A DNA stretch of 64,000 nt from Heliopora coerulea. Lineage: Eukaryota; Cnidaria; Anthozoa; Scleralcyonacea; Helioporidae. Location: positions 310,001-374,000 of the forward strand of contig JASJOG010000249.1 of NCBI GenBank assembly GCA_030142905.1, read 5' to 3'. Under the pieces are notes generated by a model. That model was not told where the DNA came from and ran no database searches. It was given only the letters and a program-made list of their open reading frames with translations. This document shows positions 9,684 through 47,836 of this stretch, piece after piece (within the stretch, counting starts at the first letter, position 1; each line of letters starts with the position of its first letter). The position numbers and the translations under genes are program-made.

Positions 9684-9968
9684 TTATCCACTGCAACACT
9701 GTCGACAGGCCTTATAGATATTTGGACAATTTGATGAACATGAGAACTTTTCACAGTCAAAATTGTTCCCGGCGTCGTCAAGTGTAAATGTCGACCCATC
9801 CTTCAATTTATTCTTTGCCATTCGAACGTCGGCAAAGCCTCTGTTGCTTCCGTGAACCATTCTTTCATTCTCCTCGATCTCGATCCATTTTGGCGCCGCC
9901 AAGCATGACAGTGCGGTCGTCAATAGCAGCAAGTTTACAAAGAGCAAATAACTCTTGTAGCTTGCCAT
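9684..9968 (-). CDS. Secreted six-cysteine peptide precursor, copy A
   Basis: A 94-residue precursor in one exon. Residues 1-24 are a classical signal peptide (short charged start, LLFVNLLLLTTALSCLA core). Residues about 25-65 are an acidic/basic propeptide, and the last ~30 residues hold six cysteines with spacing C-x4-C-x3-C-x6-C-x2-C-C. The start is the first ATG after a TATA box 74 bp upstream; AATAAA follows the stop by ~100 bp, so the transcript is about 0.45 kb. It lies in the 20-kb ITFG2 intron on the same strand. The layout is typical of cnidarian venom peptides or antimicrobial peptides. The spacing does not match ShK or the eight-cysteine coral SCRiP type, so the family is not assigned. 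Toxin or host-defence role is inference. Confidence 0.8.
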   Translation of the reverse strand: MASYKSYLLFVNLLLLTTALSCLAAPKWIEIEENERMVHGSNRGFADVRMAKNKLKDGSTFTLDDAGNNFDCEKFSCSSNCPNIYKACRQCCSG

Positions 9969-10041
9969 CCTCTTCAGTGGATTCTCAAACTCTATCAGAC
10001 TTCTGCAAGTCTAAAATGACGTCTTTACCTTTTCCCTCTAG

Positions 10042-10049
10042 CTTTTATA
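10042..10049 (-). promoter_or_regulatory. TATA box of peptide gene, copy A
   Basis: TATAAAAG on the minus strand, 74 bp before the ATG. Places transcription start near 10,015. Retained at the same relative place in all four copies of the locus. Confidence 0.7.
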
Positions 10050-10439
10050 GACTTCTAACTTCCCTAATAGTTTAACAGATGGTTACCATCGAACAACCGT
10101 ATGCCAATTCAGCGACGCAGGAGTCAAGTCAATTACAGTTTCTAACCCGAGCATTTCGCACTAATGACAGCAATTACTGTGCACCATACAGATCCTACTG
10201 CCGCCAAATAAAAAGAGTTTTAAGGGAAACCCGTTTAAGTCTGTTGATAAAAATGTTAAAGAGTTCTGCGAGCTTTATAATCAAGAATGATCCTGGGCAA
10301 AAAAAGCTGCTCGCGTCTGCATAAGTTCGTTTTTATCAATTTACTGCCCCGAAAATGGCCTGGATGGATACTTCAGACAAAAGTTGTTACTGATTGACAA
10401 TATCAAGAAATGAGAAATAAAACGACTACCAACAAAATG

Positions 10440-11463
10440 ACCAACATTTTAACCCAACATGTCAACCAAAAAACAAAGAAAACTTGTATTTAAACCACCT
10501 CTTTAACAAAGCAACCTCCTTTCCTCCGTCAGTCACCTGAGGTGTCATTGATTAGGATCCAAGTCTCCAATCATTCGGTAAACGCTGTACAAGAACGTTG
10601 ATACATACTAGAAATATTACTCCTCCATTTATGTTGAACACTTTCCGACACGTCTCCAGCTGACGTGTAAAATCGACTGACGTTGGCCAGAATAAAATCG
10701 TTCGGCGTCAGCTAGAGTGAAAATAGTGAGTTTAAGCAAGCTAGTACGGCTACGGCATTTCAAAAAGTTGCTTAACTAAATACATTTGAATAGAATAACA
10801 TACTGACGTTGTAGAGAATTGTGAATGTTGTTTACGCCTCTGAAACTCTTCTCAGTAGCTTAGGTCAGATGGTTAACGTTGAAAGGATCCGAAACGTCTT
10901 ACGTATTATGTGCTAACGTAGTCGTGGAAGCGTGGAAATGTGCACGTCGACGAACTGTGTAGAAGTGGGACAGAGTTAAAAATACTGTTGGGACTTCATA
11001 TTATTCATTCCTATTGTTTTGAATGAAAATTCCTATTGTAAGAACACGTTGCCGTAGTGTTTGTTTAAACTCCCTATTAAAAAGTTGAATAAGGATCGAA
11101 AAGAGTAAAAGTCATATTTTCGACGCGGAAAAGGTTACTTTTTGGAATTTTCTTTGTTTCTTCACAGAATGCTTCTTGTCCAACTTCAAGTGTTCGTTTC
11201 CCAAGTGGGTCTTTAATTGTTCATCAAACGTCCGCTTATCATTCCTAAGCCGTATTTTAAACATAAAAACAAACCCAACTTCATTCGCTCTAACCCGAGT
11301 GGCACTTTCGCAGCATAAGGCAAAATTGTTCAGGTTCGGGCTGCCTTAAACTAACCCAGCAACACATATCTCAACTGGGCGCTCAATTAACTAAAACAAA
11401 GGAACGCAGTTTTCAGCAGGGAATCCTGGTATCATATCCGTGTTACTGTGTGTATATAGAGAG
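10440..11463. other. Gene-free stretch upstream of peptide gene
   Basis: The first ~120 bases are shared with 20,370-20,475 and belong to the older duplication that produced the pseudogene. The rest has no recognisable feature. Counterpart 48,310-49,331. Confidence 0.45.
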
Positions 11464-11610
11464 AATAATACATGGGCGCGTGGAGATATGAAATTTATCT
11501 TCTCGTGTTCAGTTTGATCTGCCATAAATTCCATATATACGCTACTCGTGGCAGATCAAACTTAACACGAGAAGATAAATTCCATATCTCCAAACGCCTA
11601 TGTATTATTT
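11464..11610. mobile_element. Foldback MITE, 147 bp
   Basis: Outer arms aataatacatggg... and ...cctatgtattatt fold back. The inner parts share ttatcttctcgtgtt / aacacgagaagataa and agtttgatctgcca / tggcagatcaaact. Near-complete hairpin with a short loop, no coding capacity. Confidence 0.7.
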
Positions 11611-12259
11611 TGTTTATTTCATAAACACAAACGCACAGTCTAAAATGAGGATCAGCCATCTGGAAAGTTTTTTTCTGGTTTTGCTCTCAGAAAAGCTTAC
11701 TTTGTTAGCAAAAAATGAACCGGGCACACAAACTGAAATCAACAAATCGCCACCGAGATACGAATTCTAAAACTCTAAATCTGATTGATCTAACAATATA
11801 TTTTACGCGGATTTTCATTGGATTGTTCAACTAATATCTTTACAAGTAAAAATATCGTATCTTTTACGTGTGATAAAATGCGATTTTCCTCATCGCTCCA
11901 AAGCTTCGTATTACACTGAAGTTTACGAAATAAAACAATGTATATATTGATTGACGATTATGGGACGTTCGTCAAACGCAAACCTCAGAAGAAACAATTT
12001 CTCATTCCCAGAAATCGTTTCTCTGACAATTGAGCTTGATCAACGTCCAACGATAATCCATGAATATCTCAAAGTTCCCACATGCGGGAACATCCGTGTC
12101 GGTTCACATATTAATTTAATGACTTCTGTTTGTGAAAGAAAAATATATCCTGGGGTAGACAACACTTTCTAAAGGTTTTTTAGCTAGCCTTCTCAACGCT
12201 TTCTTAACGAATTTTGACACGTCAAGCGTAATTGTTCCCTGAAAGTTTTGACAAATTCA

Positions 12260-13500
12260 GTTATATATGTGCTGTTTGTTGTTAAGGTTTGCCACTGCGA
12301 TGAATCCTGAAGCAACCGTTAGCTTTTGAGTAAGAAAAAATAGACCAAAAAATATGGGAAAACCAAACAAGCAAGAATAAGATGATGATACAGTGACCTG
12401 TTCGTTCAAGTACAGTTGCTTTACTGTAGTTTTTTCCTCCAAGCTGTCATACATTTTTCACTTGCCTATCACTCAGAAGCTGGTTACAAACATTCGACTA
12501 CCGTTAAAAAAACTTCCTGTTGATTGCAATTTCCAACTTGAGCAAGTGCCTCTAACCACTGGAATAAGCGTGCCTCACGTAGATCCTATTGTCACCAAAC
12601 ACTAAATCGATTTGGATCGCATTAAATCGGTTCAAAAGTGACATACACGCTATTCAAATCATAGAGAAATTTCGCCGTTGAGATGTAATGAAAGTTAACC
12701 TCTCGCCCACTACAGAAACTGGCAACATATTTCTTCCTCTGACTTTACAATATTGTCCTCGTTATCTACCTCTGAATTACTCCACAAAGAAATCCTTCTA
12801 ATCAATAAAATGAAACCCGTTCTTGATAGGAATAATGGTTTTGGGCCACTTTCACCGCTAAGACGCTCTACCACTGAGCTACCAAGACTCAGATGGCGAG
12901 CTAAGGTTCAAGTTCAAGTTCAACATACGTGATGGCTATGCGTCACAAACGATATGCCAACGTGATCGAATGAAGCGAATAGACGCAAAATGCATCGAGG
13001 AGTTTGGTAATATCACGCACGATATGTGGACGTTAGTGAAGCTCTCTGAAAAACTATTTCGGAGCCCCAGAAATCGTCTGCAGCGTCTTACCGCTGAAAG
13101 TTTTGTTTTGATAATTTGTGTCATACGTACTGCTCGTTGTACAGCTTTGCCGTTTGAGATTATTCCTAAAGCAACCATTAGCTTTTAAGTCAGACAAAAC
13201 ATAACAAAAAACCCCGAAAAAATGCTAGTAAACTAAACAAGCCAGGAGATAACGATGTATGCAAGAACCGGTTCGTGCAAATTTACGTGCAATGACATAT
13301 TTAGCTTTTCCCCCCCCAACTTTTTCATACACTTTTAACTTTCCTAATTGCTCAATAGACGGTTAGCATCAGTCGACCATATAGTAACTCGACTGTCCTG
13401 TTGATTACAATTTTAAACTTGAGCAATCCGTACTGACTGGAATATCGCAATTCACGAAGACCCCGTAGATACTAAATACAGGACTTGTGAGAAGCCTGTG
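12260..13500 (-). other. Two decayed copies of the peptide-gene promoter flank
   Basis: About 12,290-12,600 and 13,140-13,490 are diverged duplicates of one another (caaccrttagctttt, then tcatacatttttcact or tcatacacttttaact, then cttcctgttgattgca or gtcctgttgattacaa, then acttgagcaa). The second also resembles the sequence just upstream of the peptide-gene TATA box (cttttaactttcctaat against acttctaacttccctaat). This suggests older relics of the same family. The 65-codon minus-strand frame at 12,257-12,454 has one hydrophobic segment but no cysteine scaffold. Counterpart 50,125-51,370. Confidence 0.35.
12855..12903 (-). repeat. tRNA-like fragment (A box only)
   Basis: Minus-strand tcttggtagctcagtggtag matches a tRNA D-arm/A box. 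No matching B box in the expected place. A SINE or tRNA fragment; the unit 2 copy is near 50,723-50,771. Confidence 0.5.
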
Positions 13501-14661
13501 AATATCAGTTGATGATCACGTTCGAGAGTTTAGCGGGCTTCCCAGTGAGGAATGACCTTTCCTTGCTTGAACAGTTAGTTATGTCTTTTTCAATTTGTAC
13601 TCAACTATAACACACAAAAAGTGACCTGTACACATCTCAGCCGAAAGTCGTCAACGGTCGACAATTTCAAGAATGAATAATGAACTGATTCCCAACAAAA
13701 GAAACAAGCATTTTAAACAAAAAACGTGAATTAAAACACGAGAAAAACGATAAAAAATATCCCTTTATAAAAGTTGCCTCCTTTCTTCCATCGACAATCT
13801 AACATGTCATCGGTTTGGATCGCGGCTTCCTAGCTATCGATGTACGCCTGCAATGACGTTGAAACAGACCCGAAAAATAACTCCTCTGTGTTGCATTTCA
13901 GATCTATTCTTTGTGGTACGAGATGCTAGTTTTTGGAGTTTTCGTAGTGTCTTTTTAGACTGCCGTATTTCCTCGATTTAGCCCTCTGGGTACTTTTTTT
14001 TTCACCGCTTCTGGACTAGGGGCTTATTAGAAGGAGGACCTAAATAGAGGCTGGGGACTTAATAAATTTTCACGTTCTTTAAAAATTTATTACATTACAG
14101 AATCATACTCAGAGAAACATGAAGAGAAAATTTCATAAAATTTTTCTCTGAAAAATTCATAAGTGCATTTTTATTTAGCCTAATCAGTATATTCCACAAG
14201 GAAAATATCACAAAGTTCTGTATATGTCCATGTATTAACTAATGTAAATAATTCTAGAAACTAAACAATCAAAGGTCATAAGAGAAACGCAACATTATAT
14301 CATCTACTGATAATATGGTGGAGGCTTATTTTTTTTCAGCGCTTCAGGACTGGGGGCTTATTAGAAGGGGGGCCTAAACAGAGGAAATACGGTATGCTCG
14401 TAGTGCAACATTAAAAGCTCGGTTTAAGTAGGCCCTTATCCTCATATCAAACTAAAGCTTATCTCCTTAAAACAACCGACCCAACTTCATTAAAAGTCAG
14501 CGCTAACCTGTGCTGCATTTTGCTGTGTAAGTAATGTTTAATTCAGGTTCGGCCAGGGTTAAACTAACCTGCCTTAAACAGCTCAGCCAGACTCTAAATT
14601 AACTTAAGTTCTCGTATCATTTCTAAGTTACCGCGAGTAACAATGTATGCATATATATATA
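13500..14661. other. Gene-free stretch
   Basis: Contains two related blocks about 340 bp apart (ttcaccgcttctggactagg near 14,002 and ttcagcgcttcaggactggg near 14,336, each followed by ggcttattagaagg), which look like the ends of a small decayed element. No gene. Counterpart 51,370-52,533. Confidence 0.4.
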
Positions 14662-16317
14662 CGGTACTTTGCATAAGTTTTAGGAAACCCTTGACTTTTT
14701 TGTTTCAGCCAGGTTCTAGGGACTATAAATATTTCTGTCAGTATGACCGTACATTGTATAAAGATACATTTTTGAAATACAGACACACATGAAAATAAAA
14801 TAAAAGTAAAGAAAGTTTGTATTTGTTCAGGCTGACATTAATATTTGGTATGACCCCTTTTTGCACGTAGAACAGTTTGGATTCTCTTACGCAGACTACC
14901 CTGACGTTTTCTCAAGTAATCGCTTCATATGTTATACCAAACGTCCTTCAGAACTTCCCAGAGCTCTGTTGAGGACTTGGGCTGTCTTTCTTGCCGTTCT
15001 CTGTCAAGGTGATCCCATACTGCTTAACTAATGTTCAAGTCAGGACTTTGTGGAGGGTAGTCCATTACTGTGAGGGCTCTGTCAGTTGTTTTCCTCTCTA
15101 ATAATAATGATTCCATAGCATGAGCAGTGTGCTTTGGATCATTGTCATGCTGAAAAATAAAGTACTTTCCAATCAGACGCTTTCCAGAAGGAATAGCATG
15201 ATGAATGAGAATCTGCCTGTGCTTTTCGGCACTTAGGATTCCATTAATGCGGACAATATGCCCAACACATCTGACTGAAATGCAGCCCCAGACCATTACA
15301 GACCTTCCGCCGTGTTTCACTAAAAGCTTGCAAGAATTCATTATTGTACCTCTCACCAACCCTTCTTTATACATATTACCCACGATTGGACCCTAAAAGT
15401 TCGAACTTTGATTTATCATTCCAAAGCATTTGTTTTCATTGATCTTCATTTCAATCTTTGCGAGTTTTGCATATTTTAGCCTCTTTTCCCTGTTCCCTTT
15501 CCAGATAAATGGTTTCGTGGCTGCTGCATGTCCATTAAGGCCGTTTGTAATCAAGCTTCTTCGAACTGTAGATGGATCTACTTTGGGTCCAGATGAATCT
15601 GCCAGATGCTGAACAAGGTCTTTGCTAGATTTCTTCCTGTCTGCTAAGGAAGTGACTTTGAAGAACTGCTCATCTGATACAGATAGCTTTTTAGGCCTTC
15701 CACGTCTTTTTTTTTTGTCATTGACATGTCCAGATATTTGAAATTTCTCAAAAACAGCTTGAATCTCACATCTTGAGAATCATGCTTGTCGGCTTATTTC
15801 CCTTTGAGAATGGCCTTGTTGATGCAAAATTATAATTTTTTGCCTGTCAAACAGTGTAATGTTTGGCATTTTGCGTGCAATGACTTGATAAGAAACGTTT
15901 TCAGTATTAGCAAGTTAGTAATGATTGTTTAAAGATGTGCTCTTATCGAATTGGTCTGTCAAGTTCAACGGATCATTAGATCAATTCGGACGCATGAAAA
16001 AAACCCATGACAAAAAGTAAACCAAACTCAAACCAAAGCTTTGTAAGCTTTGTGAAGGAAGCCTTGTGTAACATACCAGAATATTAATGCAACAAACTTC
16101 AAAACAGTTTGCTTACAAGAATTCAACCTGTTTTACATGCAAAATGGGCATAACAAATAATGATTTAAGACTGGAGATGTACCGACTTTTTATAATGTTT
16201 GCACTTCATGTCTACATATTTGTTGAGTGTAATATTGGACTAAGCAATATGTACTTATAGTCCCTACAACCTTGCCGCAGCAAAAAAGTTAAGGGTGGCC
16301 TAAGACTTTTGCACAAT

Positions 16318-16321
<4 letters not shown>
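14662..16321 (-). mobile_element. Tc1-like transposon, 1.66 kb, inactive
   Basis: Inverted ends cggtactttgcataag... and ...cttttgcacaatattg sit between TA dinucleotides (14,660-14,661, 16,322-16,323). The size is normal for Tc1. The minus-strand transposase is broken, but clear blocks survive, including WNDKSKF (first catalytic Asp), VKHGGRSVMVWGCIS, FQHDNDPKHTA (second Asp) and PPQSPDLN. Frames are interrupted before and after the open segment. Confidence 0.9.
15024..15383 (-). pseudogene. Tc1 transposase fragment (DDE domain)
   Basis: Open segment of 119 codons covering the middle of the DDE domain. It ends in a stop exactly where Tc1 transposases carry the third catalytic acid: the expected PDLN-x-x-E-x-VWD block reads PDLNIS, stop, AVWD. 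Upstream the frame also has stops after GSNRG. The unit 2 copy shares the same stop, so the element was dead before the large duplication. Confidence 0.85.

Positions 16322-16366
<45 letters not shown>
16322..16366. repeat. (TA)n microsatellite
   Basis: An uninterrupted run of about 22 TA units directly at the Tc1 insertion site. Only a short, interrupted tract exists in unit 2 (54,197-54,221), so the length changed after duplication. Confidence 0.9.
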
Positions 16367-16370
<4 letters not shown>

Positions 16371-16663
16371 CTCTCACACTCAAACATCCTCTATAAACTC
16401 TCACACTAAAAAGCAGGCGAGTTAAGTGGTTTTAAATAATCTTAACGTATTGCGCAGAGAAATATCCGATCTTTCTTTATTCCGGCAGCGCGGCAAGATT
16501 CAGCGACTGTAGTTGGTAAGTTATGTTGACTAAGATAATGATGCTTCGGCTTACAGTCACATATGCAAGTGCAAAAGAGCATTGCAGACATAATAAAGAT
16601 TGCGTGTCGCCAATGTTCGCTTCTCAGCCATCTGTGTGGGATATTCAATACTAAAGTTATGTT

Positions 16664-17418
16664 AGTTAGAAATATAATAGCCCAGCAAACAAGTTTAAAT
16701 AGAGCCATAATGGAACCATATCTTTAAAAGAGTTTTATTGACTAACGTTTCGTTACTTAACCAGTAACATCATCAGAGTAATTATTTACAAGAGTTGAGA
16801 GGCTTAAATAGCTAACTGTTACAAAAATAGTGATGAAAGAATGTCACAAAGGATTAGCGGAACGATTAGCAAGAACAATTAACGGAAGGAGTGCGAGTAA
16901 TAAAGTGATGAAGAATTAGACGTGTGAAGAATTTAATTAGAGGGGAGGGGAAAAAAAAAAAAATGTCAAGAAATAACGTTAAAAAAGTGCTAAAGGAAAG
17001 GATCTGAATGCAACCGTCTCTTAACGCTAATATCAGATCCTTTCCTTTAGCACTTTTTTAACGTTATTTCTTGACATTTTTTTTTTTTTCCCCTCCCCTC
17101 TAATTAAATTCTTCACACGTCTAATTCTTCATCACTTTATTACTCGCACTCCTTCCGTTAATTGTTCTTGCTAATCGTTCCGCTAATCCTTTGTGACATT
17201 CTTTCATCACTATTTTTGTAACAGTTAGCTATTTAAGCCTCTCAACTCTTGTAAATAATTACTCTGATGATGTTACTGGTTAAGTAACGAAACGTTAGTC
17301 GATAAAACTCTTTTAAAGATATGGTTCCATTATGGCTCTATTTAAACTTGTTTGCTGGGCTATTATATTTCTAACTAAACTTCGTTTTCCACCTGGCTGT
17401 TCAATCGCAACGATCTTG
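16664..17418 (+). mobile_element. Giant hairpin retroelement insertion, only in unit 1 (Penelope-like)
   Basis: Two 345-nt arms (16,663-17,007 and 17,033-17,377) are almost perfect inverted complements around a 25-nt loop, followed by a unique 41-nt tail to 17,418. A 14-bp duplication (actaaagttatgtt) flanks it at 16,650-16,663 and 17,419-17,432. Unit 2 has the empty site near 54,513. Each arm carries a hammerhead-like core. Paired inverted arms plus hammerhead motifs are known from Penelope-like elements; placement there is inference because no coding region is present. Confidence 0.7.
17258..17306 (+). ncRNA. Hammerhead-ribozyme-like core, right arm of hairpin
   Basis: CTGATGA at 17,264, a stem II pairing gttac with gtaac, GAAA at 17,289, a two-base stem III (AC/GT) and a GTC cleavage triplet ending at 17,300. 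There is one extra U between CUGAUGA and stem II, and stem I pairing is weak, so activity is uncertain. The complementary copy lies on the minus strand at 16,740-16,776. Confidence 0.45.
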
Positions 17419-17931
17419 ACTAAAGTTATGTTACTTTTGATCACAATATTTTGTGCTAAAAGTGCCCTCAAAATGCAGGAAATCGCATTTAAGCGCAAAT
17501 GAAAATCAAAAATTTTCCAGGGAAGCATGCTCTGGACCCCGCTTGAGAAACCTAGCCCCTTCGGCGCTCGACCATCCCCCCGAATTTGGACATCTTCCTA
17601 CCGCGGAACAGAGGTGCATGCCAACAGGGTAGAAAGTGACAATCTATTCAACCAGGAAGGCTGTGTTTGGGGTTCCATAACTTAAAACAACTCCACTTCG
17701 CATTAGCATACCGTTGGCGCTCTCAACTCTATCTTGGGCTGTCAGCTACAAGATACACAAGAAGTTTTCACACATGCATCTAGTTATAAGCACACAGACG
17801 CTAAATCATCACCAATTATACAATTTTATTAATTTGAAGACAAGTAAAGACAAGTGAGCTACTGTTACTTCGGCCCTAGGTTGCTATACGTCACGACAGT
17901 ACAAGAATAAAAGTACAGTAACATATAGGAG

Positions 17932-18138
17932 CTATCTATCGCAACACTGTCGACGGAACGGAATTGTCGGTGCACAATTTTGTGGACAAACGATATTTTG
18001 ACAGTTAGAAGTCTTCCGGTCGTCGTCAAGTGTAAATATGACATCATGACAAGCATGACAGCACGGTCGTCAATAGCAGCAAGTTTACAAAGAGCAAATC
18101 TTCACTGGATTCTCAAACTCTATCAGACTTCTGCAAGT
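17932..18138 (-). pseudogene. Decayed six-cysteine peptide gene, unit 1
   Basis: The 3' UTR and downstream flank are about 97% like those of the intact gene at 9,684-9,968. The mature region is recognisable from its closing cysteine pair and a normal stop. The fourth scaffold cysteine is replaced by arginine, leaving five. Most of the propeptide is deleted. Another deletion of about 22 bp removes the start codon region, and the remaining signal-peptide stretch is out of frame with a stop. A 725-bp Harbinger element separates it from its TATA box (18,897-18,904). Not expected to make the peptide. Confidence 0.85.
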
Positions 18139-18141
18139 CTA

Positions 18142-18866
18142 GGGCCCCGTCTACAGGTATACGGATTAGTTTGAAAACGCAACGTTTTCTTTGCGAATTC
18201 GCCTTCCGTCCACACGTATCCGGCGAATACGCTGACCGAAAACGCAACCTTTTGAAAACGGTGTTCAGGGTGGAAACTTTTGAAAACGCAACGCTAGCGT
18301 TTTCGTGTGGACGCATTAAAACGGAACCTTTTGAAAACGATGAAGTAATAGTCTCGAATCCAGTCCATCCACGTGCATCGGTGCATTGGTAAATTAAAAA
18401 TGGCGGACAGACAAGCTGTTTTTTTCGATACTAATCGGGCTTATTTCAAGCCTTATTAATAGCATATGTTCATTTAAATAATGCGATGTTAGGTTTTCAG
18501 GCTGATTATGCAAGGAAATGAATGAACATAATCAGGGTTCTTTCATTGCTAGTCGCAAAAATTGGGACCGTGAAACACTTAAACAGAAGGCGTCAAGCAC
18601 GATCTCGACGATTCTGGGTTAGACCTGGACAAACAAGTGTTTGGTGCGCTAATTTTGTCAACGAAATAGTTAACCCAGAGGAGTGGAATATAATAATGTA
18701 TAATAGCGCATACTCAGTAAGTGATTCTAGCGTTTTCGGTCGCTTTAGCGTATTTGTGTGGACGGTCGAAAACGATTTAGATGCGCTACGTGTGGACGCG
18801 AATTTTTTTGAAAACGGAAAAATATGTCTGCGTTTTCAAACGAATCCGTATACGTGTGGACAGGGC
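18142..18866 (+). mobile_element. PIF/Harbinger non-autonomous element, ~725 bp
   Basis: Ends gtatacggattagtttgaaa and its inverted match at the right (tttcaaacgaatccgtatac) form the terminal repeats. The duplication CTA (18,139-18,141, 18,867-18,869) matches the 3-bp target rule. The intact paralogue near 10,010 (gcaagtctaaaatgac) is the empty site. Inside, 18,522-18,700 encodes an N-terminal Harbinger transposase-like block (RRRQARSRRFWVRPGQTS, then NFVNEIV-PEEW). The nuclease core is missing. Confidence 0.8.
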
Positions 18867-19615
18867 CTAGAATGACTTCTTTAGCTTTCCCTCAAGCTTT
18901 TATAGACTTCTAACTCCCCTAATAGTTCAACAGATGGTTACATCTAACCAGAGCATTTCGCACTAATGACAGGAATTACGGTGCATTACTAAGATCCAAC
19001 TACCGTCAAATAAAAAGGGTTTTAAGGGAAACCCGTTTAAGTCTGTTGATAAAAATGTTAAAGAGTTCTGCGAGCTTTACAATCAAGAATGATCCTCGGC
19101 AAAAAAAGTTGGTCGCATCTGCATAAGTTCGTTTTTATCAATTTACTGCCCCGAAAATAGTCTAGATGTATACCTCAGACATAAGTTGTTACTGATCGAC
19201 AATATTAAGAAATGAGAAATAAAACGACTACCAACAAAATGACCAACATTTTAAACCTAATATCACGACCAGGCAACAACTTAAAAAAGTATAAAATAAA
19301 ACATATTGCGAAAAATAGAGACATCTTGGAAAACTCAAGATATGAGTCAAAACAAGACGAGTATATGAGATTGCAATATTTCGACTTTATTACGAAGTCA
19401 TCATCAGACAGAAGGATTTACAAAACAAGCCAAGGTCTATATATACAGTGTGGCGTGGACAACGGCAGTTAGGAATCCTATACCTGAGATATTAACACGA
19501 CAGAACGCATTGCTAATTGCTAATTAACTCGAGAGGAAGCTATTTACTAACGTCTATATAAAAAGCTATTTACAAACGTCTGACAGAACACTCTACTCAA
19601 CTTAACACCAGTGCA

Positions 19616-19882
19616 ATGGCACAACACCTCACTGAATGCGAACACGCACAGTTTCTTGCCAACATACAGGGTCGATACAATCGACTTAATAACCACCCCT
19701 CCTTTTCGAACTCATCTAACTCTATCAAAAATTTAATCTTTAATAACTATAAAATTCTTTACTCGAGTAAATCTACTAACACTAATAAAGTCTTGTTAAT
19801 TGAAGCTCTCCGTATTAAATTTAATAAGCCTGAAATCAGCTCCGGACTGAAAGCTTCAAAAGAACTCACACTTTTCAACTAG
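19616..19882 (+). pseudogene. Penelope-like ORF, C-terminal end
   Basis: 88 codons. The closing blocks KVLLIEALRIKFNKPEI and a LTLF end follow the pattern (KE-A-x-I-x-x-KP-x-LN ... L-x-LF) seen at the C-terminus of Penelope-like proteins, after the GIY-YIG endonuclease. The catalytic parts are absent, so this is a remnant. Confidence 0.6.
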
Positions 19883-20253
19883 GCGGCCTCGCACTTTTAT
19901 ATATATTTCCGACCTTCTACTTTATACGTCTTTCTCACTCCGACTCTTTTCTTTCCTTTCCTTTGTCTTTCTTTCCTTTGTCAAGTTAATGGCTGACGAT
20001 TATTCTACCAGTTTGTCGATCTTATGGCATCTAATACTCACCTGTCTCAGTCATCTTATGTCATCTTACACATCAATATTGTCTGGTCAGTTGTTATTAA
20101 TGACCTTTGCCTTGTAAATAGCTTCTTCTCGAGTTAATTAGTGATCAGCAATGCGTTCTGTCGTGTAAATATCTCAGGTATAGGATTCCTAACTGCCGTT
20201 GTCCACATCACACTGTATATATAGACCTTGGCTTGTTTTGTACATCATTCTGT

Positions 20254-23500: not shown

Positions 23501-23514
23501 TCAACTAGAAAAGT

Positions 23515-36460: not shown

Positions 36461-36462
36461 AA

Positions 36463-37768: not shown

Positions 37769-38036
37769 TTTTTTTACGTCCACTTCAAGATGGTGGATAC
37801 TTACCGTGAGAGCCTGAGAACTATTCGCGCTCGCGTTATAATTCATTATGTCCATTTAACTAAGATTGGGGTTAGCATTAGCTCAAATCGTAAACCAAAT
37901 CCTAACCCTAATCCTAAGCCTAACATGAATCTTAGGTGAGAGGACATGGTGAATTGTAATATAACGCGAGCGCGAATGGTTCTCAGACTTTCACAATAAG
38001 TATCCACCATCTTGAAGTCGGCGTAAAAAAATCGCC
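37765..38036. mobile_element. Foldback MITE-like element, complete copy
   Basis: Left arm about 37,765-37,843 and right arm about 37,960-38,036 are imperfect inverted complements of each other, including caagatggtggatact and cgcgctcgcgttat. The spacer holds degenerate CCTAA repeats. It marks the start of unit 2 homology. No coding capacity. The superfamily was not determined. Confidence 0.75.
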
Positions 38037-38518
38037 CGGAAAGGGTTTTCGGACTTACTTAATTTCACGGATTTTCACCTGTTGCAAAGGAACATGAGAA
38101 TCAGCGTAAAACACTCAAAGTTTCAGAGATTTCAGGAATGATCACGCGAATCTGTATTTGGCGATTGTTACGTTATTTTTGCTAGGCATGATTTCAAGTT
38201 ACATCATCTTTAACAAAAATGGGTTTTAAGAATGTTAAAAAATGCCTGAGATATTGAGGTTTTGATGCAAAAATACGTCTTTAAAAGATATTTAAAATTT
38301 GATCGATGAGTAATCGCATGTATCCTTTTTCATAGCGAGTGGTTCTAGTTCAGATGTCTTAACTTTTAAAAATATTGCGCAATGCTGATAAGGGTGAAAG
38401 TTATAGTTTTCGGGATTTAGATGAGAATGTGTGACGTCAACTTGTTACGTTACCACAAGAAAAAAGCTTTGCTTACATTTGCTTTGAAACGTTACTGATT
38501 ATTTATAATTCACTAGCA

Positions 38519-38905
38519 CTGCCGTATTTCGATTACTGCATTGCAGTATGGGGAAACTGTAATAAGGAATTGTCGGACTAGCTTCAAAAGCTACAAAATA
38601 GGGCTGCTAGAGTGGTTACCTTTTCGAACTCTTATAGGCATTCATTAGAATTGTTGGGTGAGCTTATATGGGATAATATAAAAACTAGACGATATAAACA
38701 ACTAGCTGTGATAATGTATAAAACCGTTAACAGAAGCACACCAACTTATGCAACTAGAATTTTTGGAAATGTCAATTCGGTTCATTCGTATAACCTGCGA
38801 GATTCGGATGTTAATACCATGTACCAAGACCATAATTATACTGAAACTGGTATGAACAGCTTTCATTATCAAGGTGGCGGTCCTCTGGAATGGTCTTTCG
38901 AATGA
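38519..38905 (+). pseudogene. LINE reverse transcriptase C-terminal tail (remnant), unit 2
   Basis: Counterpart of the 809-1195 remnant. It is open for 97 codons from 38,612 because the stop seen in unit 1 is absent. It still lacks the reverse transcriptase catalytic region. Confidence 0.7.
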
Positions 38906-39748
38906 TGTAAAAAGTCAAGTTACTCTGAGATCTTTTAAAGAACGTTTATAGTTAAAGTTTTAGCTAAATTATATTAAAGAATAAGAAAAGAAACTTTATG
39001 TAGTATAGTTTTGTATATAGTTAATGTAATTATATTTAATTCTAATACACGGCTCACTGGAAGATCTTTTGAAAATGAAGTGAGTCCGTGTTTAAATAAA
39101 GATTATCTCTGGCAGCAGCGAGATCATTACTCTGATTGTTCAAGAAAATCACGCAGTCTTTCCCCGTCGCCAGCTGTCGGCGATTGTCGGCGACGGATGT
39201 TTCGATTAACCATTGTCGTATGAGCGACTATTGTAATTGTTGTAGAAGTTGAAATAGATTGAAGTTCTACAACAGTCGCCGATCCAATCACAACAATTAT
39301 AACTCGTGTTTCCATAAAGTCGCGTATTTCCATTAAGACTCTAGCGGCGTCAGTCGCCGATTGAATTCAGCAATTACAACTATTTGGAAACCAGCCCAAG
39401 AACCTGTCAAGTAAAAGTTTTTGTAAGAAAGGAAGAACGTAATCGCTGAGCAGTTTATTCAAGAAATAAAGAACGTAGTTGGCCGCTGATTGATCTGCAA
39501 TGACAGTTGCAAAAACCAAGAAATTGAACAAATCCTTGTTCAGAAGGACTCTCGTATTCTTAGATATCCACTGTTTTGAAGTGCTGTCTCACAATGCAGT
39601 GCCATCAAAATCTGGCAATTCATTGGCTTAACTCTTTTTGGTCTGTACACGACTTTTTAATTTTACTCTGCCTCGCACCACACAAATTTATTTGTCAACA
39701 GGACACGTCTCAGACCAGAAAGGGTTAAAAATCAGATACCTCAATTAA

Positions 39749-40343
39749 AGCCTTGTTTACATGAACAGAAGTTGTCCCTGGTGGGAGGGTTACCGTAGCC
39801 CCTGAGCGATCCTGGGCGAGATGACTTTCAACACATTTCTTTGTAAATCGCAGAGACCCGTTTACATGAGAAGTCGCAAAGTTATCTCGGGGGCAACGGT
39901 GACCCTGGGGGTAGGGTGACCTCAGAAGACGAGACAACTTTTTGCCATGTAAACACTTTGTCCCTCTGACTCGCCTGGGAGGGACAACTTGAGACACGAT
40001 GAAGATGCGCAAACTTTGTTAATTCCAAATCACAGTCAAAGTCGTCTGCAAAATTGCAAGATAAAAGATGGGCTTTCACTTCTGCGATGATTGAATCCTT
40101 AATCGACTGTTTAAGGCAATACAAGTGTCCATGTGAATTCACTCCAGTCGATTTTAATCCCGATGAAGTACAGCTGTACGAAGAAGTTCGGCAAGAGAAA
40201 AGTAACTCTTCCCACTTCCTTCAAAGTCAAATCAGAGTGAGGCAACTTTGGTTTTCCCCATGTAAAGACTAACTATAAAAGATGACTTGGGGGTGTAAGT
40301 AACCCTTCCACCAGGGGCAACTTCCCTTCATGTAAACAGGGCC
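39749..40343. mobile_element. Harbinger-type MITE, unit 2
   Basis: Same insertion and same TAA flanks (39,746-39,748 and 40,344-40,346) as at 2,036-2,632, so it predates the large duplication. Confidence 0.75.
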
Positions 40344-40515
40344 TAACTCTCTTTGGTCCGTATTCGACTTTTTATGTTCGCTCTGGCTAATGCTAGACGA
40401 TATTCTCGTCAATGAGAGACGTGTCCTACCGGATACGTTAATCTAATTTTAGCTCTGATAATGACTCGTCTTCACTTTCTACCAAGTTCTTCGATTGTAA
40501 CAATTTTAATCTAAC

Positions 40516-40737
40516 CTGTGGCATTAATTGTCCCGTCTGTTTTTGAAGATTTTCTTTCAATGATTCCTCAGCACAAACCAAATAAATGTACGCTCCACCT
40601 GGCTGAGACACAAGGATCGCCGGAGATGTTCCACTGCGTCCATCGATCACGGACAGAGATTCCACTTGTCCTGATAACTTCCATTTTTTAGCACAAACGA
40701 ACTTCCCTTCGAAAAGAGTTCGGTTTTCCGAAGTGCC
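40516..40737 (-). CDS. ITFG2: ITFG2 internal exon, copy 2
   Basis: Same exon as 2,805-3,026, with identical visible protein and the same acceptor and donor. It lies about 3 kb upstream (in transcript sense) of the terminal exon at 36,861-37,520, and both junctions are phase 0, so they join cleanly. About 20.6 kb separates it from the preceding exon at 61,323-61,506. The open frame continues to 40,438 if the predicted donor is skipped. Confidence 0.82.
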
Positions 40738-42648
40738 CTAAAGATTATAAAAATAAAAAAGACCCAAAACGTAATTTAAACAAAGTAACTTTTCAGTTGT
40801 ATTGCATGAATGACGGTTCAGTGGTAAGACCCTTTTTTACTGCTCACTTCGAGTTGAACTCCTCAGTCAGCAAAAACCCATACGCCAAGGTCCGTTCTCA
40901 ATAACGAGTTTGCTGTAATTTTTATCGCCGACCCAACATTGATTTAAAATCGTATAAACCGTCGAACGTTTCACTGTAATTTGGATGATTGCCGTCACTG
41001 GCTGAGATATGGACTGACCTTTTACAGCGAGTTTCACAGGAACGTTATCAAATAAGCTACAAACTTCATGGCCTATTTCCTCTTTAGATCTTCCGGTACT
41101 ACCTACGGCATTTTAGTGGACCCACCTAGCCGCTGATATTTTGCCGACGGCTTAGCAAACTGCGATACGAGATTTCGGCGCGAAATTTAAACAGCTTAGC
41201 TCAGTGTAACGGAATCTAAAATGCCGTTAGTTTATGGAAATAGCTGCAAATTAAAAAAGAGAAAAGAATACTTTGCGAGGATTTTACTACTCGAAAAAGG
41301 CTTACAGTTTGACCTACTAGCTAAAATCCTGCCAATATTACTGTTTCTTCATCAACGTCTGGCATTATTTCCTGACCAAACCTGAGCTCTAGCACTATCC
41401 TTAACTCTAATTAAATGTATGATAATAAGAAAGTAAATAGCTGTATACTCTTTACCATACTCTTCACCTCTTTCGCTCCAAATAATCAAATGAATGCGGT
41501 GGCATGCATAATCTCCCGCCAAATGCAGTTTCGCTTGCCCAGTCTAACCGATCTTCCTTTTTCGGTTCTCCGCATACTGTCATTCAGAGAACCTACTGCC
41601 TCACCTTTCCACTTGTTGATCCACTTCCTGAAACATTTCCAGCAATCGTAGGGTCAGCTTTGCTCTGAGTTTGCTTAAACAGACCTTTTCCCTCTTTTGG
41701 AGTTCTGTTTTTGAATTTTTCCCTCCTTTGAGTTTTGTTTAACGAGAGTTTTTTCACTAGGTGTTACATCTTGAGCTTCTAAAGTTTAAAATAACAGGAA
41801 CTGCGATTAATCATCATGAAAGTGATCACCTCTCAATTTAACTAATTTACTTAACTTCATTAGTTAATCCAATATAAGTGCACGAGAGATTCTCGTGAAA
41901 ACTTAACTCTCGATATTCGTGAGAATGTGCAGTGTTCCGACTGTATTTAAGAATCATCCTCAGAATTACATGAACAGAATATTTCATGAATTGACCTACA
42001 CTGCTAAAGTCAACTGGAAAAGTTGACTACAGCGGGATTCGAACTCGCATCTTCGGTTTACCGGACCGCTGCTCTGCCCAGCAAGTTCGAATCCCGCTCT
42101 TGTCAATTTTTCTGGCTCACTTTAGCAGTGGAAGTCAATTCAAGAAATATTCTAAGCTATTTATATTCACAATTTTTATAGGGCGCGCCCTACGCTCTGC
42201 CTCAAGCCTTCTTTGGTCGATGATATCTCTTGACGTTTCCTTGGTACACACGAACAATTAACCGTAAAACAACCAAATAGACCAAATGATCCGTTTGAGA
42301 TATTTACGCGAGACTTAAAATGAAAACAAGTTTTAAAATATTATGTCTTTACAAGTATTTAATATATTATATCAATGAAAATGATTGTTCTATTTGATTA
42401 TATTTCGTTGAATCGTATGAAAAATTAGTAGGGCACAATGTTTTTGGTTTTTTGTTTGTTTTCTTTTTTGGGGGGGAATTGACCTCACGATTCGAAAAAT
42501 CTACCAATTTGTTATAACCGCATTGAAAATTTCAAGCAAAAATCTTAAAACCTGAATTTATGGTAACGTTTAAAAATTTCCAGTCAAATGTCTGTGAAAA
42601 AAGTTGGCGATTTTAGGGTTAATATTGTTATAGAGATCCGTGTACTGT

Positions 42649-42806
42649 CAGGGCCGCCGAGAGACAAATTGAGGCCCGGGGCATAACGGTCGGGTAGAGG
42701 CCCCCACCCCGGACCATTGGAGCATTGACTACGAGCATTGGGGGCCCCTGAATATCTGAGGCCCTGGGGCAAATTACCCCCTTGCCCCCCCCTCTCGGCG
42801 GCCCTG
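42649..42806. mobile_element. hAT-type MITE, only in unit 2
   Basis: Perfect terminal inverted repeats cagggccgccgagag / ctctcggcggccctg bound a 158-bp GC-rich element. It is flanked by a perfect 8-bp duplication TGTACTGT (42,641-42,648 and 42,807-42,814). Unit 1 at about 4,938-4,945 keeps the empty site with a single TGTACTGT. The 8-bp duplication and CAGGG termini are hAT hallmarks. No coding capacity, so moved in trans. Confidence 0.9.
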
Positions 42807-43211
42807 TGTACTGTGGGTGAACGCAAAATTTTGAAACGGATCAAGAGAGCCACCTTTCTATGCAAGCGGTTAAGCGCGCTGGATGGGGCATCAGTGGCAG
42901 CACAAAGGACTTCTTGAGAGATTTTTACCCCGTTTCTTCCAAAGTCAAGGAGCCTATGGCGATCTTGATTTGTTCTCAACGCTTCAGTCCTATTCTGAAC
43001 AATTTTGGTCCCCTTGAAATCGTTCTGGAGACGAAGAATTCCCAGATTTTCGCAAATGAACAACCTGTCCTAGAACTTGCGTGGTGTTACTCGTCTACAA
43101 CAGATCGCTTTTCTTCTAAATCTATTACTTCAACAACCACCAGTCCGCAAAATCAAAAAGTTATCGCTCAATGAACTCTGAGGAACATCATGGCAAAATG
43201 ACATGCTTACT

Positions 43212-43507
43212 AAAGGTAAAAGTAAAGGTAAAGTGCCTTTATTTCTACTGAATAACCCTATCAGTTACCTGCGCTGTTCTCCCTAGAGGCCCAGTAAGGG
43301 CCACCCATCATGGGTCCAGTGTTCGGACAGAAGGAAACCGGAGTACCTGGAGAGAGCCTGCGATGCTTGGTAGAGACAAACTGGGCAACGCTCTTCTCAC
43401 ATGTGACCAAAGTAACTTTAATCAGATTACTGCAAGGAGCCGGGATCGAACCCTAGTCACAGTGGTGAGAGACACGTGCACTACCACTGTGCCACCACCA
43501 CCCATTA
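43212..43507 (-). repeat. tRNA-derived SINE, unit 2
   Basis: Same insertion as 5,337-5,632, with A and B boxes intact. Confidence 0.75.
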
Positions 43508-44774
43508 TTCCACATAGTTGTAACAGATGTTGTCCAGCCCCCTATTGGTTAGACTATTTAAACTCAGACCAAGGATACTTTAGTCCGTTTAGTGCATCAC
43601 TTGGCATGAGTACCACTGGAGAGATTCCGCTAGACCGGCATATGCTGGTTTTTACCGGTAAAAAAAACAACTTGTACCGGAAAAATCTTAAGTTGACGGT
43701 TTCTTGCATCGATAAATTTTGTTTTTGGCGTTAAGATTTCAACGTGCTTTAATACAGATCAGAGTCGTCCACTGCCAATAAAAACATGATCTAACTTTGA
43801 CGCCGAGGTTAACCGTTTTCTCTTGAGCTGAAATTGATAGCGTGAGATTGGTGAGTATATAAGTATTGACTATATGCTGTGCTGCCGAACATACATACAA
43901 TGGTTATACGATTGAAAAAAAATCCACTGGGATTGTTATACCTATATTACTAACAATCGATACATCTATTTGACATAAAATATGTGAATTAAAAAGTTTA
44001 AGTAAAAGAAGTGTTGTGCTAACGCACAATCTTAACCGTTTGTTTTACACTTTTCTCAAGTCTCGCAATATCCCTCGCGTTTGGATCACAGTATCCAAAC
44101 GCGCGGGATAACAGTATCCAAACACGGGAATCAATTTGGTGTTTCTCAAATCTCTGTGACGTTTTTGAACACTCGTACTCGGCTAGTGTGATCAAATTTT
44201 CGCGTGTACTCGAACTCGACCATGTAACACTCGCTCTTTGCAGTTCGTTGGTCATAAACTGATCATAATACAGTAGAAAATGTGGACTAGGAGCCCAAGT
44301 AGTTTCTCCTTCACAAATCACGCACATATTTTTCTGCACCGACGTCTCTCACAAGGTGTTTCCATGCACGAGAAAGTGTTAGCCAACCAAACAAATGGAA
44401 GCCATCATTAACATGAAAATTCAGTGGAAAATAAATTATGCTGTTGGGAATTCACTCCTAGTTAAAATGTTTTTCAAGGCAAATAAAACAGTTGCTAAAG
44501 GCTGACGAAAATAGTCTTCAGATCTTGTAAAACCCATTGAAGAACTTTCACACGTTTGTACATAAAAAGCTGCTTTAATAACAACGTAACGCAATATTTC
44601 TGCCAACCCCATACTCCCTCTCAAAACTCTAAATTTGTACGTTGGGACGTGTTTAACGAAAACGGTTTTTAAATTATTCGTACCCATTACCCCTTTTGCT
44701 CCAGACTTTATCATTCTTCCTTTACTAGTGACAATTTCAGCTAAACCACGTGTTTCCACGCAATACCTTATATT

Positions 44775-45062
44775 AAATTTCACATGTAATTTCACAAGTG
44801 AAAAACATATGGAATTGGATCATTTTCATCCATGAAAATTTTATTTCACATATGAAATGGGAACTTATTAACATATGAAATACCCACTTCACATGCGAAA
44901 TGAACTGGATAAAAATTTCACATGTAAAATGTTAGTGCTCGAACTATGAATTTCACATGTGAAAATTAAGTTCACATATGAAATTTTCCTTTCACATATG
45001 AAACTGAAACAATTCACACATGAAATACTATTTTAATCTGTGAAATTCCATGCGAAATAGTC
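44775..45062. repeat. Array of palindromic TTTCACATRTGAAA motifs, unit 2
   Basis: Same array as 6,898-7,190 with a few point changes that break individual palindromes (for example tttcacatgtaaaa). Confidence 0.75.
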
Positions 45063-45169
45063 ACAGAGGTGCACGGCAGTACGAAGCACGGGCGGCGGGC
45101 GCCCCTTTATTTCTTAGAATAAGGGGGCTAAGCTCCTCTAAAAAGTCGCTATTAAAGCAGGAGAATTAA

Positions 45170-46810
45170 GGTGGTTCTATACATTTAATATTTCAAAAAG
45201 TCGATTTTTTGGAATTATGAAATTTAGCATTATTAAACATTACTTTTTCATTCCTCGTTGCTATTTTCTTGATTTCGACCACACAAAAAGATTAAATATT
45301 GAAAAGAAATTGCCAATCCTTTTAATTGTGCCTTAGGAACCGTCATAGCAACGAATTGTTATTGTCAAATTGTCATCACAGGACTGTTTCTACAACGTAG
45401 GAAATAGACCCAATGATTCTTAACCACCCCTCCCTCGTTATTGTAAGATTTTAATCCATTTTACTGTGTATTAACGTGAGGTGATCAGCGGTAGGCTGTG
45501 ATTTTGGCGCGCATTTGATTGTTTTCTTTGCGAGAGACGTTGGTAATGGCAGTCAGTTGCAGGATTTGTGGCCGGTTCGTCAAATATGAAATTCGGCTCC
45601 TGCGTAACAGTCGCAGCTGGCCTAAGGGACATCATGTAAAGTCCGAGGATGTTCGATCTGCCAGAAGCCTTTCAAACAATCGAGAGGTGCCTTTATCCGT
45701 CGAGAATTTGCTCCCGACGTGGGCGTTCGAGGCAGAGGCACGACTGAGAGTCGTAATAGGTTTAGGGCTGTAGGTCTGTGAAAAAATTTTTTGAAAAATT
45801 TAGAGTGGCATATCTTTTAGATATGTACTAGAGTCTCTCGCCTAGGATATGTTTGGCTTTGTGGTTTCGAGCCCGAATTAGACTTAGTATAAGATATATT
45901 ATATGAAAGGGGGGAAGGTAGGTGCTGTTGAAGATATACAGAATCGCCCATAGTGCAATAGAAGCATAACATGGCTATAGAGTGATAAGGTTATGCCATC
46001 CATGAACACAAGGGCGCGTTATGCGTGATCACTGCATGCTATTGTGCACACCCCCACAATAAGCGAATCAGTGCGTTTGTTTACATGATTGGTAAAGGGC
46101 GGGACGAAGGCGGAGCAATCGGTCTGTTCCGAAATTGGCTGAGATGTCGGAACGAATCGAAAGAGAAGAAGCAAGGAGACAAGAACCAGGAAAGAGGAGA
46201 AACCTGTTCAACAGGATCATTTTAACAGCTTTTTGACTTTATTTTGGTCTGTAATGTATCATTGATCCTCTTAAAAATTTGTTTGAAAACTTTAAACTCA
46301 ATTTTCTCAGTTTACTGTCTTGCTCGGTGCCAAAAACTCTCCTGCATTTAATATTTGTTTAATTGGTGTCAAATTTTCAGCATTTGTCAACAACAAATAG
46401 GTCTATGATGTGAACCTCAACAATCACCTATATAAGAAATAGTTTTTGAAGAAACCGATCACTATATCTGTTGTATCGAACTGTATTTTGAAGCAGTTAC
46501 AAATACAATAAAATTTCACGATTAAAAGCTTCTAATCACTTCTTTTTTTTAGGTTCATGTCATGGGTACATGTATTGAGGCTCTATTAAACTTAGTTTTG
46601 TATGTGTCTAGCCTTTACTTTAGTCCCTATAATTTTTGGCATAAGTGCCCTAAATTTCACCCATAGGGGGAAGTATTTCGGTTACCATGGAAACAACATG
46701 CTCATAATTTGCTGATTTTGCATCAGTAACTTATTTCCTATCTGTTGCACCAGAAATATGTTGAAAAAAACTCAAATTAAGAAATTTTATTTTCAATGTA
46801 TAGAACCACC
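45170..46810. mobile_element. TTAA-target DNA transposon, unit 2
   Basis: Same element and site as 7,297-8,942, flanked by TTAA at 45,166-45,169 and 46,811-46,814. Confidence 0.75.
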
Positions 46811-47444
46811 TTAAGTGGTTTTAAGTCATCTTAACGTATTGCGCCGAGGAATATCCGATCTTTCTTTATTTCGGCAGCGCGGCAAGATTCAGCGACTGTA
46901 GTTGGTAAGTTATGTTGACTAAGATAATGATGCTTCGGCTTACAGTCACATATGCAAGTGTAAAAGAGCATTGCAGACATAATAAAGATTGCGTGTCGCC
47001 AATGTTCGCTTCTCGGCCATCTGTGTGGGATACTCAATACTAAAGTTATGTTGCTTTTGATCACAATATTTTGTGCTAAAAGTGCCCTCAAAATGCAGGA
47101 AATCGCATTTAAGCGCAAATGAAAATCAAAAATTTTCCAGGGAAGCATGCTCTGGACCCCGCTTGAGGAATCTAGCGCCTTCAGCGGTCGGCCATTCCAT
47201 CGACTTTGGACATCTTCCTACGGCGAAACAAAGGTGTATGCCAACAGGGTAGAAAGTGACAATCTATCCAACCAGAAAGGCTGTGTTTGGGGTTCCATAA
47301 CTTAAAACAACTCCACTTCGCATTAGCATACCGTTGGCGCTCTCAACTCTATCTTGGGCTGTCAGCTACAAGATACACAAGAAGTTTTCACACATGCATC
47401 TAGTTATAAGCACACAGACGCTAAATCATCACCAATTATACAAT

Positions 47445-47450
47445 TTTATT
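47445..47450 (-). terminator. Poly(A) signal of peptide gene, copy B
   Basis: AATAAA on the minus strand, same position relative to the stop as in copy A. Confidence 0.65.
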
Positions 47451-47551
47451 AATTTGAAGACAAGTAAAGACAAGTGAGCTACTGTTACTTCGGTCCTAGG
47501 TTGCTATACGTCACGACAGTACAAGAATGCCAGTACAGTAACATGAAGGAG

Positions 47552-47836
47552 TTATTCACTGCAACACTGTCCACAGGCCCAATAGTTCTTTGGACAATTT
47601 GTTTGACATGAGAACTCTTCACAGTCAAAATTGTTCCGGACGTCGTCAAGTGTAAATGTCGACCCATCCTTTAATTTATTCTTTGCCATTCGAACGTCGG
47701 CAAAGCCTCTGTTGCTTCCGTGAACCATTCTTTCATTCTCCTCGATCTCGATCCATTTTGGCGCCGCCAAGCATGACAGTGCGGTCGTCAATAGCAGCAA
47801 GTTTACAAAGAGCAAATAACTCTTGTAGCTTGCCAT
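47552..47836 (-). CDS. Secreted six-cysteine peptide precursor, copy B
   Basis: A 94-residue precursor with the same signal peptide and propeptide as copy A: the first 65 residues are identical, with one silent base change. All six cysteines and their spacing (C-x4-C-x3-C-x6-C-x2-C-C) are kept. Ten of the remaining residues differ from copy A, through 12 base changes, none silent. Several alter charge or size in the loops between cysteines. TATA box, 5' leader and 3' UTR are nearly identical to copy A. Pattern: a conserved secretion leader with a fast-changing mature peptide, as seen in venom and host-defence peptide families. Specific function unknown. Confidence 0.8.
   Translation of the reverse strand: MASYKSYLLFVNLLLLTTALSCLAAPKWIEIEENERMVHGSNRGFADVRMAKNKLKDGSTFTLDDVRNNFDCEEFSCQTNCPKNYWACGQCCSE

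Follow-up and report, generated by a model that had tools for sequence, protein, structure and literature searches.

Amino-acid change concentrated in the mature part of a family of small cysteine-rich peptides from Heliopora coerulea

Two intact genes and a pseudogene pair in a tandem array

The stretch of DNA analysed here, hereafter the window, is 64,000 nucleotides (nt) long and belongs to contig JASJOG010000249.1 of the Heliopora coerulea genome assembly GCA_030142905.1 (429.8 Mb, 769 contigs). It carries two intact genes, A and B, each encoding a small, probably secreted precursor rich in cysteine, and two copies of a related pseudogene (Table 1). Positions are those of the whole window unless a contig is given. 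Codons 1-65 of A and B, comprising signal peptide and propeptide, are called the leader, and codons 66-94 the mature region. The plus-strand frame over both genes is broken by stops, and the open reading frames (ORFs) lie on the minus strand. A and B have the cysteine spacing C-x4-C-x3-C-x6-C-x2-CC in common, and neither carries a dibasic site of the KR or RRKR kind before the first cysteine.

The initial annotation had described a single silent difference in the leader and 12 differences in the mature region, in 10 codons, all changing an amino acid, with six cysteines kept. Both counts were recovered: the leaders differ at 1 of 195 nt, silently, and the mature regions at 12 of 87 nt in 10 codons, 12 of 12 nonsynonymous, so that 10 of 29 residues are changed and 6 of 6 cysteines retained. 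All 12 changes fall within 85 nt, and 7 of the 12 are transversions. Relative to the duplicated blocks in which the genes lie (530 mismatches over 25,952 sites, 2.04%), this is a clear excess (binomial p = 2e-7). The background is overdispersed, about 0.2% of 99-nt segments in the aligned blocks carrying at least 12 differences; in divergence the A-B mature stretch ranks second among such segments of the two blocks, behind a noncoding one. That all 12 changes are nonsynonymous is weak evidence taken alone (simulation p 0.04-0.15), and it was dropped as a stand-alone proof. With the neutral length fixed at 2.04%, a codon model gave for the mature region of A and B an omega (dN/dS) of 11 (95% interval 6-18, p = 4e-9); this length is conservative, since the A-B flanks within 2 kb differ by 1.1%. 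With free lengths omega was unbounded, and omega = 1 was rejected at p = 0.009, or p = 1e-5 once the pseudogene was added. For A, B and the pseudogene together, an assumed length of 0.065 yielded an omega of 11.2; assumed lengths from 0.02 to 0.09 gave 21 to 9. For the A-B leader omega was 0, with an upper bound of 0.67.

The two pseudogene copies had been reported as identical over the matching stretch. This holds for the mature stretch plus stop (0 of 90 nt different), and not for the leader remnant (3 of 78) or the 3' flank, where one copy carries a dense cluster of 13 changes. Over the same 90-nt interval the intact genes differ at 12 positions (p = 3e-4). Copy 1 retains 5 of the 6 cysteines. 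Pseudogene and intact mature regions differ at 32-33 of 90 nt (36%), close to the 40% estimated initially by eye; the 3' flanks, given as about 97% alike, differ over 520 nt by 1.7-2.5% for copy 2 and, with the cluster included, by 5.4-6.2% for copy 1. The pseudogene mature type is nearer to P0004 (50% over 36 residues), one of the protein-database relatives (labelled P), than to A (41% over 32).

The age of this older duplicate depends on which flank is read. The upstream part of the gene unit shows 19-22 mismatches over 313 columns between intact and pseudogene copies (6-7%), and the first 60 nt past the stop hold 5 fixed differences; beyond them almost no site separates the two types (Table 1). 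The 3' flank from +61 to +500 reads as homogenised by conversion between intact and pseudogene copies, so the neutral age of the duplicate would be nearer 6-7% than about 2%. For this reason the apparent 20-fold excess of pseudogene mature over 3' flank divergence was rejected as a rate. The leader remnants differ by an adjacent two-base change (18062-18063 against 55148-55149), at which copy 2 agrees with A and B, and copy 1, translated in the old frame, gives the residue of P0003-P0005; this is possibly a small conversion tract.

With neighbouring contig sequence added, the duplicated blocks turned out to be part of a four-unit tandem array at about C167:303,033-420,366 (C numbers denote contigs of the assembly). 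Units 3 and 4 are partial; the former holds an intact relative, the latter a relative with an in-frame stop in its propeptide, and further genes lie on the same contig near 390k and 411k. A divergence of 2% falls in the range of animal heterozygosity, and A and B could in principle be two haplotypes wrongly laid in tandem, their differences being allelic, all the more as other contig pairs (C344/C350, C297/C614) are haplotig-like. We regard this as very unlikely: the joined 164-kb stretch of C167 contains no N, and four units of differing divergence, together with the genes near 390k and 411k, stand on one contig. As the same pattern recurs at other family loci, an assembly error is likewise an unlikely source of the A-B differences.

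Table 1. Features of the window
Feature	Position	Strand	Remarks
Intact gene A, 94 amino acids	9684..9968	-	leader 9774-9968, mature region 9687-9773, stop 9684-9686
Intact gene B, 94 amino acids	47552..47836	-	leader 47642-47836, mature region 47555-47641
TATAAA	10044..10049	-	81 nt 5' of gene A start codon
TATAAA	47912..47917	-	81 nt 5' of gene B start codon
AATAAA hexamer resembling a poly(A) signal	9577..9582	-	102 nt past gene A stop
AATAAA	47445..47450	-	102 nt past gene B stop
Pseudogene copy 1	17932..18100	-	leader remnant without start codon, most of propeptide deleted, open mature stretch 17935-18021
Pseudogene copy 2	55018..55186	-	mature stretch 55021-55107 identical to copy 1
Gene A 3' flank, +61 to +500	9184..9623	-	only 2 of 440 sites split both intact from both pseudogene copies
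Upstream part of duplicated gene unit	10141..10452		with 18943-19254, 48009-48320 and 56028-56339
Noncoding 13-difference stretch	17546..17644		against partner 54632-54730; all 13 private to this copy among four
Tandem unit 1, in-window part matched by unit 2	1..26899		aligns with 37808-64000, 2.04% mismatch
Matching part of array, mainly tandem unit 2	37808..64000		aligns with 1-26899

Family members and pairwise divergence across the genome

Searched with gene A, the assembly gave 33 matches; with locus L018 as query the number was 39, A and B counted. The census of 39 loci (L numbers), resting on these two queries, is a lower bound; the loci are spread over seven contigs (C167, C28, C379, C297, C344, C350 and C614), some of which form near-identical pairs. 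TATAAA occurs at -76 to -92 from the start codon in 29 of 33 loci examined, and AATAAA within 250 nt past the stop in 31 of 33. L010 is a doubtful case, having an early stop with AATAAA 10 nt past it, inside the former coding part. Since both signals are kept across loci, the family genes look like compact, apparently single-exon transcription units, untranslated exons being possible.

Mature cysteine number is two, four, five or six, and 35 mature parts fall into 11 cysteine spacings under one leader superfamily. On the leader tree, where only 6 of 26 inner branches are well supported, at least 13 changes of spacing are required. The spacing CC-x4-C-x(1-3)-C is found in 12 of the 35 (10 distinct without two near-identical contig pairs), A and B not among them. 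Seventeen rows were taken by script as having a C-x3-C-x6-C-x2-C core. There, Cys VI is present if and only if one further cysteine is (11 both, 6 neither), a count that includes near-duplicates and from which the five-cysteine L013/L014 and the pseudogene fall out; in L016, L024, L025 and L028 the further cysteine lies inside the core and not at position I. This suggests that Cys VI and the further cysteine pair with each other. In ShK-type connectivity, Cys I is bonded to Cys VI. AlphaFold, run with five sequences, was uninformative (mean pLDDT 56). L013 (C28:375k) and L014 (C28:411k), with their five mature cysteines, have no TATAAA within 200 nt upstream; they are perhaps decaying, or encode a dimer-forming peptide.

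As for processing, KR stands shortly ahead of the first cysteine in L011-L014, and RRKR in L038/L039. The residue just before the variable part is Asp in 23 of 24 members of the leader alignment and Glu in the remaining one. Acidic residues also flank peptide N termini in cnidarian preprohormones, and the Asp of the family is an N-terminal site of the kind described there (PMC9545775, PMC8638164). A separate branch, L052-L057, has a weak leader match to the rest of the family (E 3e-5 to 3e-4), and its precursors end in a two-cysteine peptide, an amidation/dibasic signal (G-K-R; G-L-K-R in L053) and a conserved coding tail.

Thirteen gene pairs without a common gene were then compared over leader, mature region and alignable flank. 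This leaves 13 of the 39 loci outside the pairs (L012, L014, L020, L022, L033, L035, L036, L038, L039, L053, L055, L056 and L057). Nonsynonymous (N) and synonymous (S) change was expressed per site. Pooled over the pairs, mature N was 22.2% (156.8/707.5), mature S 6.7% (17.2/255.5) and flank divergence 4.9% (717/14,517), which gives a mature N/S of 3.30 (Fisher p = 4e-9) with S not significantly different from flank (p = 0.19). Mature N exceeded flank in 12 of 13 pairs, and leader N did so in 2 of 13. For the seven pairs with flank below 6%, mature N/S was 5.4 and N/flank 8.5; for the six older pairs, mature N/S was 2.5. The pooled ratio was 3.06 without the A-B pair and 3.70 without stop-bearing and mosaic genes; an earlier version on 12 pairs, with whole, partly unalignable flanks, gave 3.33 at a flank divergence of 8.6%.

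Ten of the pairs compared are near, with flanks differing by up to about 3%. A burst of mature change is seen in four of them: A/B, L017/L018 (leader 0.5%, mature 12.6%, flanks 0.7-3%), L015/L016 (mature 24%, flanks 1-1.7%) and L052/L054. In the last, the leader differs at 2 of 219 nt, the core peptide at 8 of 42, the tail plus stop at 0 of 42 and the flanks at 2 of 280 and 2 of 300; the excess is bounded on both sides by conserved coding sequence, so that a loose C terminus is not the explanation there. L054, L055 and L056 (C28:240-247k), three two-cysteine peptide genes without a difference between them, lie about 3.26 kb apart and reflect a very recent tandem amplification.

Several observations weigh against a simple reading by selection. 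The pooled leader N/S is 0.93 and its N/flank 0.73, and leader constraint is weak outside A/B. The pairs were hand-picked after divergences had been seen, and, while they share no gene, they may not lie on separate branches; the Fisher tests use rounded counts and take sites as independent. The remaining six of the ten near pairs (L011/L012, L013/L014, L022/L023, L025/L028, L032/L033 and L038/L039, the last differing by one mature residue) have a quiet mature part, and L054-L056 are identical. P0004 and P0005, compared by eye with the unit 4 and unit 3 genes respectively, show about equal change per residue in leader and mature part. Finally, the noncoding stretch at 17546-17644, in the same window, is as dense in differences as the mature cluster, so clustering alone cannot decide between selection and conversion. 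The quiet pairs and the P0004/P0005 pattern imply episodic selection, or selection linked to new paralogues, and the bursts do seem tied to some of these.

Selection, conversion and mutation

Amino-acid change is raised and mutation not detectably so, which argues for diversifying selection acting on the part that is released. Two readings had been proposed from the window alone, repeated positive selection and conversion from paralogues not seen there; both find support across the genome's paralogues. The initial annotation had named a mature dN/dS near or below 1 as contrary evidence, and with the additional paralogues the ratio stays well above that. Selection is favoured over a mutation hotspot and over the wholesale import of old paralogues because of the N/S of 3.3 and the closeness of mature S to flank.

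Conversion is evident at L031 (C350:40k), a mosaic. Its flanks are of the type of L029 (C344:84k), differing by 2-2.7% over 500 nt upstream and about 1% downstream, and its coding sequence from +100 to +294 is of the L023/L032 type (mature part 3/66, against 20/66 to L029). The first 100 coding nt are nearest to L030, and the switch back to the L029 type occurs at the stop codon. C344 and C350, which are near-collinear, look like versions of a single locus, and an allelic cassette swap is possible. One may then ask whether the mature differences are mainly due to ectopic conversion, paralogue cassettes being pasted into an otherwise homogenised gene. Besides L031, the homogenised pseudogene 3' flank points this way, and the noncoding cluster at 17546-17644 could itself have been imported. 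P0003, a metagenome relative about 90% like A, differs from A at 6 of 29 mature residues, fewer than B does (10 of 29), so that for the A/B mature parts a donor gene beyond the compared assembly genes is kept as a possibility. However, old imported cassettes should raise S as well, and the cassettes themselves must have diversified somewhere. None of 27 assembly genes compared with each of A and B (L010, L035, L036, L038, L039 and L052-L057 left aside; B among the 27 for A, and A among those for B) is closer in mature DNA to A or B than these are to each other. At codons 78-79, moreover, where P0003-P0005 carry proline, A and B have departed from it independently of each other. Conversion as the main source is therefore considered unlikely. 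Cassettes do move between loci, yet mature synonymous change close to the flank level indicates that most of the variation is young and amino-acid changing.

Local hypermutation, or error-prone repair aimed at the mature part, would account for the crowding of the 12 changes into 85 nt, for the 7 transversions among them and for the comparable noncoding cluster. It is most improbable. Pooled synonymous change does not exceed flank change significantly, the A-B, A-pseudogene and B-pseudogene comparisons hold no codon with a purely synonymous change (p 0.008-0.074), and the pseudogene mature parts are unchanged over the very interval in which A and B differ. This bears out the earlier remark that the local mutation rate is not simply high. 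Once the pseudogene is added, 8 of the 10 variable A/B codons are three-state.

We consider it likely, then, that A and B are members of a superfamily of small secreted disulfide-rich peptides whose released part is episodically rewritten by selection. Compact genes with a TATA box and a poly(A) signal multiply by tandem segmental duplication. From the anatomy of the precursor, the signal peptide would direct it into the secretory pathway, cleavage at acidic or dibasic sites would take off the propeptide, and the final 20-30 residues, with two or three disulfides, would be released. The sequences show that in many pairs of paralogues this part changes its amino acids several-fold faster than neutral, with synonymous sites changing normally. 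Cysteine spacings shift, at one locus the coding cassette is that of another gene, and copies decay into pseudogenes. If the peptide meets changing outside targets, such as receptors of prey or predators, competitors or microbes, new copies may be selected to differ; venom or defence would be the most likely function.

Other elements were noted around the genes. An exon-sized ORF for ITFG2, a KICSTOR complex subunit (36861-37619, minus strand; Pfam PF15907, E = 4.5e-49), sits just ahead of the second matched block and marks the DNA as that of an animal. An insertion of about 769 nt (16650-17419), present in unit 1 and absent from unit 2, adjoins the pseudogene 3' flank, near the dense noncoding cluster. 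Tc1/mariner-like transposase remnants occur in both units on the minus strand: that at 15027-15779 matches HTH_Tnp_Tc3_2, and the one at 52896-53654, judged by ORF translation, is a copy of it. Elsewhere in this genome there is one GFP-family exon, against none in 14 control genomes, which is in keeping with a cnidarian but no proof of one.

Possible function and comparison with known systems

The family may instead be endogenous, consisting of neuropeptides or recognition peptides that diversify with coevolving receptors. Such a role would fit the two-cysteine peptide and amidation/dibasic signal of the leader-related L052-L057, as well as the Asp before the variable part, which resembles the acidic sites of cnidarian preprohormones discussed above. 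Each precursor holds one peptide copy, however, and the leader match of L052-L057 is weak. For endogenous ligands, single young pairs with an omega near 10 are unusual. On balance we find this alternative somewhat unlikely.

The initial annotation had assigned the scaffold to no named family, and searches of Pfam, NCBIfam and the Protein Data Bank (PDB) likewise gave no credible relative or named family. Among 24 members searched against Pfam there was no family match at E <= 0.1. The best PDB chain with the family profile was a designed protein (E = 0.14), and weak library matches to an APP-binding protein (E = 0.012) and a cytochrome model (E = 0.015) were read as chance. Scanning prokaryote genome contigs and viral contigs revealed no relative. 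Searches of 5.8 billion proteins yielded 3, 3 and 9 relatives, each an unnamed ENA entry; of these, P0004 and P0005 are near-orthologues of the unit 4 and unit 3 genes, respectively, which they resemble at 93%, and P0009-P0011 are, by eye, identical over the common part to L019, L027 and L026. In a literature search covering neither subscription journals nor sequence content, no paper was recognised as describing the family, and no earlier description of the superfamily was found.

Pfam holds conotoxin and ShK models. The 24 members gave no match to the ShK/SXC domain, and none to a Pfam conotoxin model, a comparison that did not extend to the conotoxin leaders themselves. The coral antimicrobial peptides damicornin and AmAMP1 are six-cysteine prepropeptides, probably with a different spacing.

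Among anthozoan families, the SCRiPs of stony corals and sea anemones are also small secreted cysteine-rich precursors; they have eight cysteines, three of them adjacent near the C terminus (PMC10892658), and as none of the 35 rows has eight in its mature part, membership was rejected. One SCRiP subfamily is described there as being under diversifying selection (mean omega 1.30). Tandem amplification of toxin genes is likewise known from Nv1 and KTx3 of sea anemones; KTx3 is stated to be under diversifying selection and the other families discussed alongside it under purifying selection, and 14 of 18 NaTx copies of Nematostella are 99% similar at the mRNA level (PMC9842752). Unlike the NaTx copies, the present genes are alike in flanks and leader and not in the mature part.

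The closest likeness in mode is to the conotoxin superfamilies, which combine a signal peptide, a propeptide and a single mature peptide, keep cysteines amid hypervariable loops and show several frameworks per leader (PMC4278219, PMC3823881). The type I framework CC-C-C of the A superfamily (PMC4278219) is found in the C297, C344, C350 and C614 genes, a match, seen in 12 of 35 rows, to a four-cysteine spacing that is easily converged on. With no profile match, and the genes not being those of a cone snail, the likeness is one of mode, with nothing that points to membership. It is a tentative proposal, possible and short of probable, that a diversification engine of the conotoxin style arose independently in a cnidarian, built on duplication, on cassette conversion between loci and on bursts of selection that run at about ten times the neutral rate and touch only the released segment. 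A single leader superfamily, descended from an amidated cyclic two-cysteine signalling peptide or from an ancestor common to both, would thereby yield six-cysteine, four-cysteine and alpha-conotoxin-spaced peptides. The two-cysteine amidated branch would offer a test of the link between neuropeptides and toxins, and the very young gene pairs would open the emergence of new disulfide frameworks to testing. As in a hypervariable superfamily of the venom type, the family combines leaders that resemble one another with a mature N/S above 1, cysteines that are mostly retained and multiple frameworks, the comparison being one of mode only. Purifying selection is described as the broad pattern in cnidarian toxin families, with exceptions (PMC10892658, PMC9842752); if the reading by selection is true, the present family would be a strong exception, its released segment changing several times faster than neutral and, in one branch, lying between conserved stretches of coding sequence.

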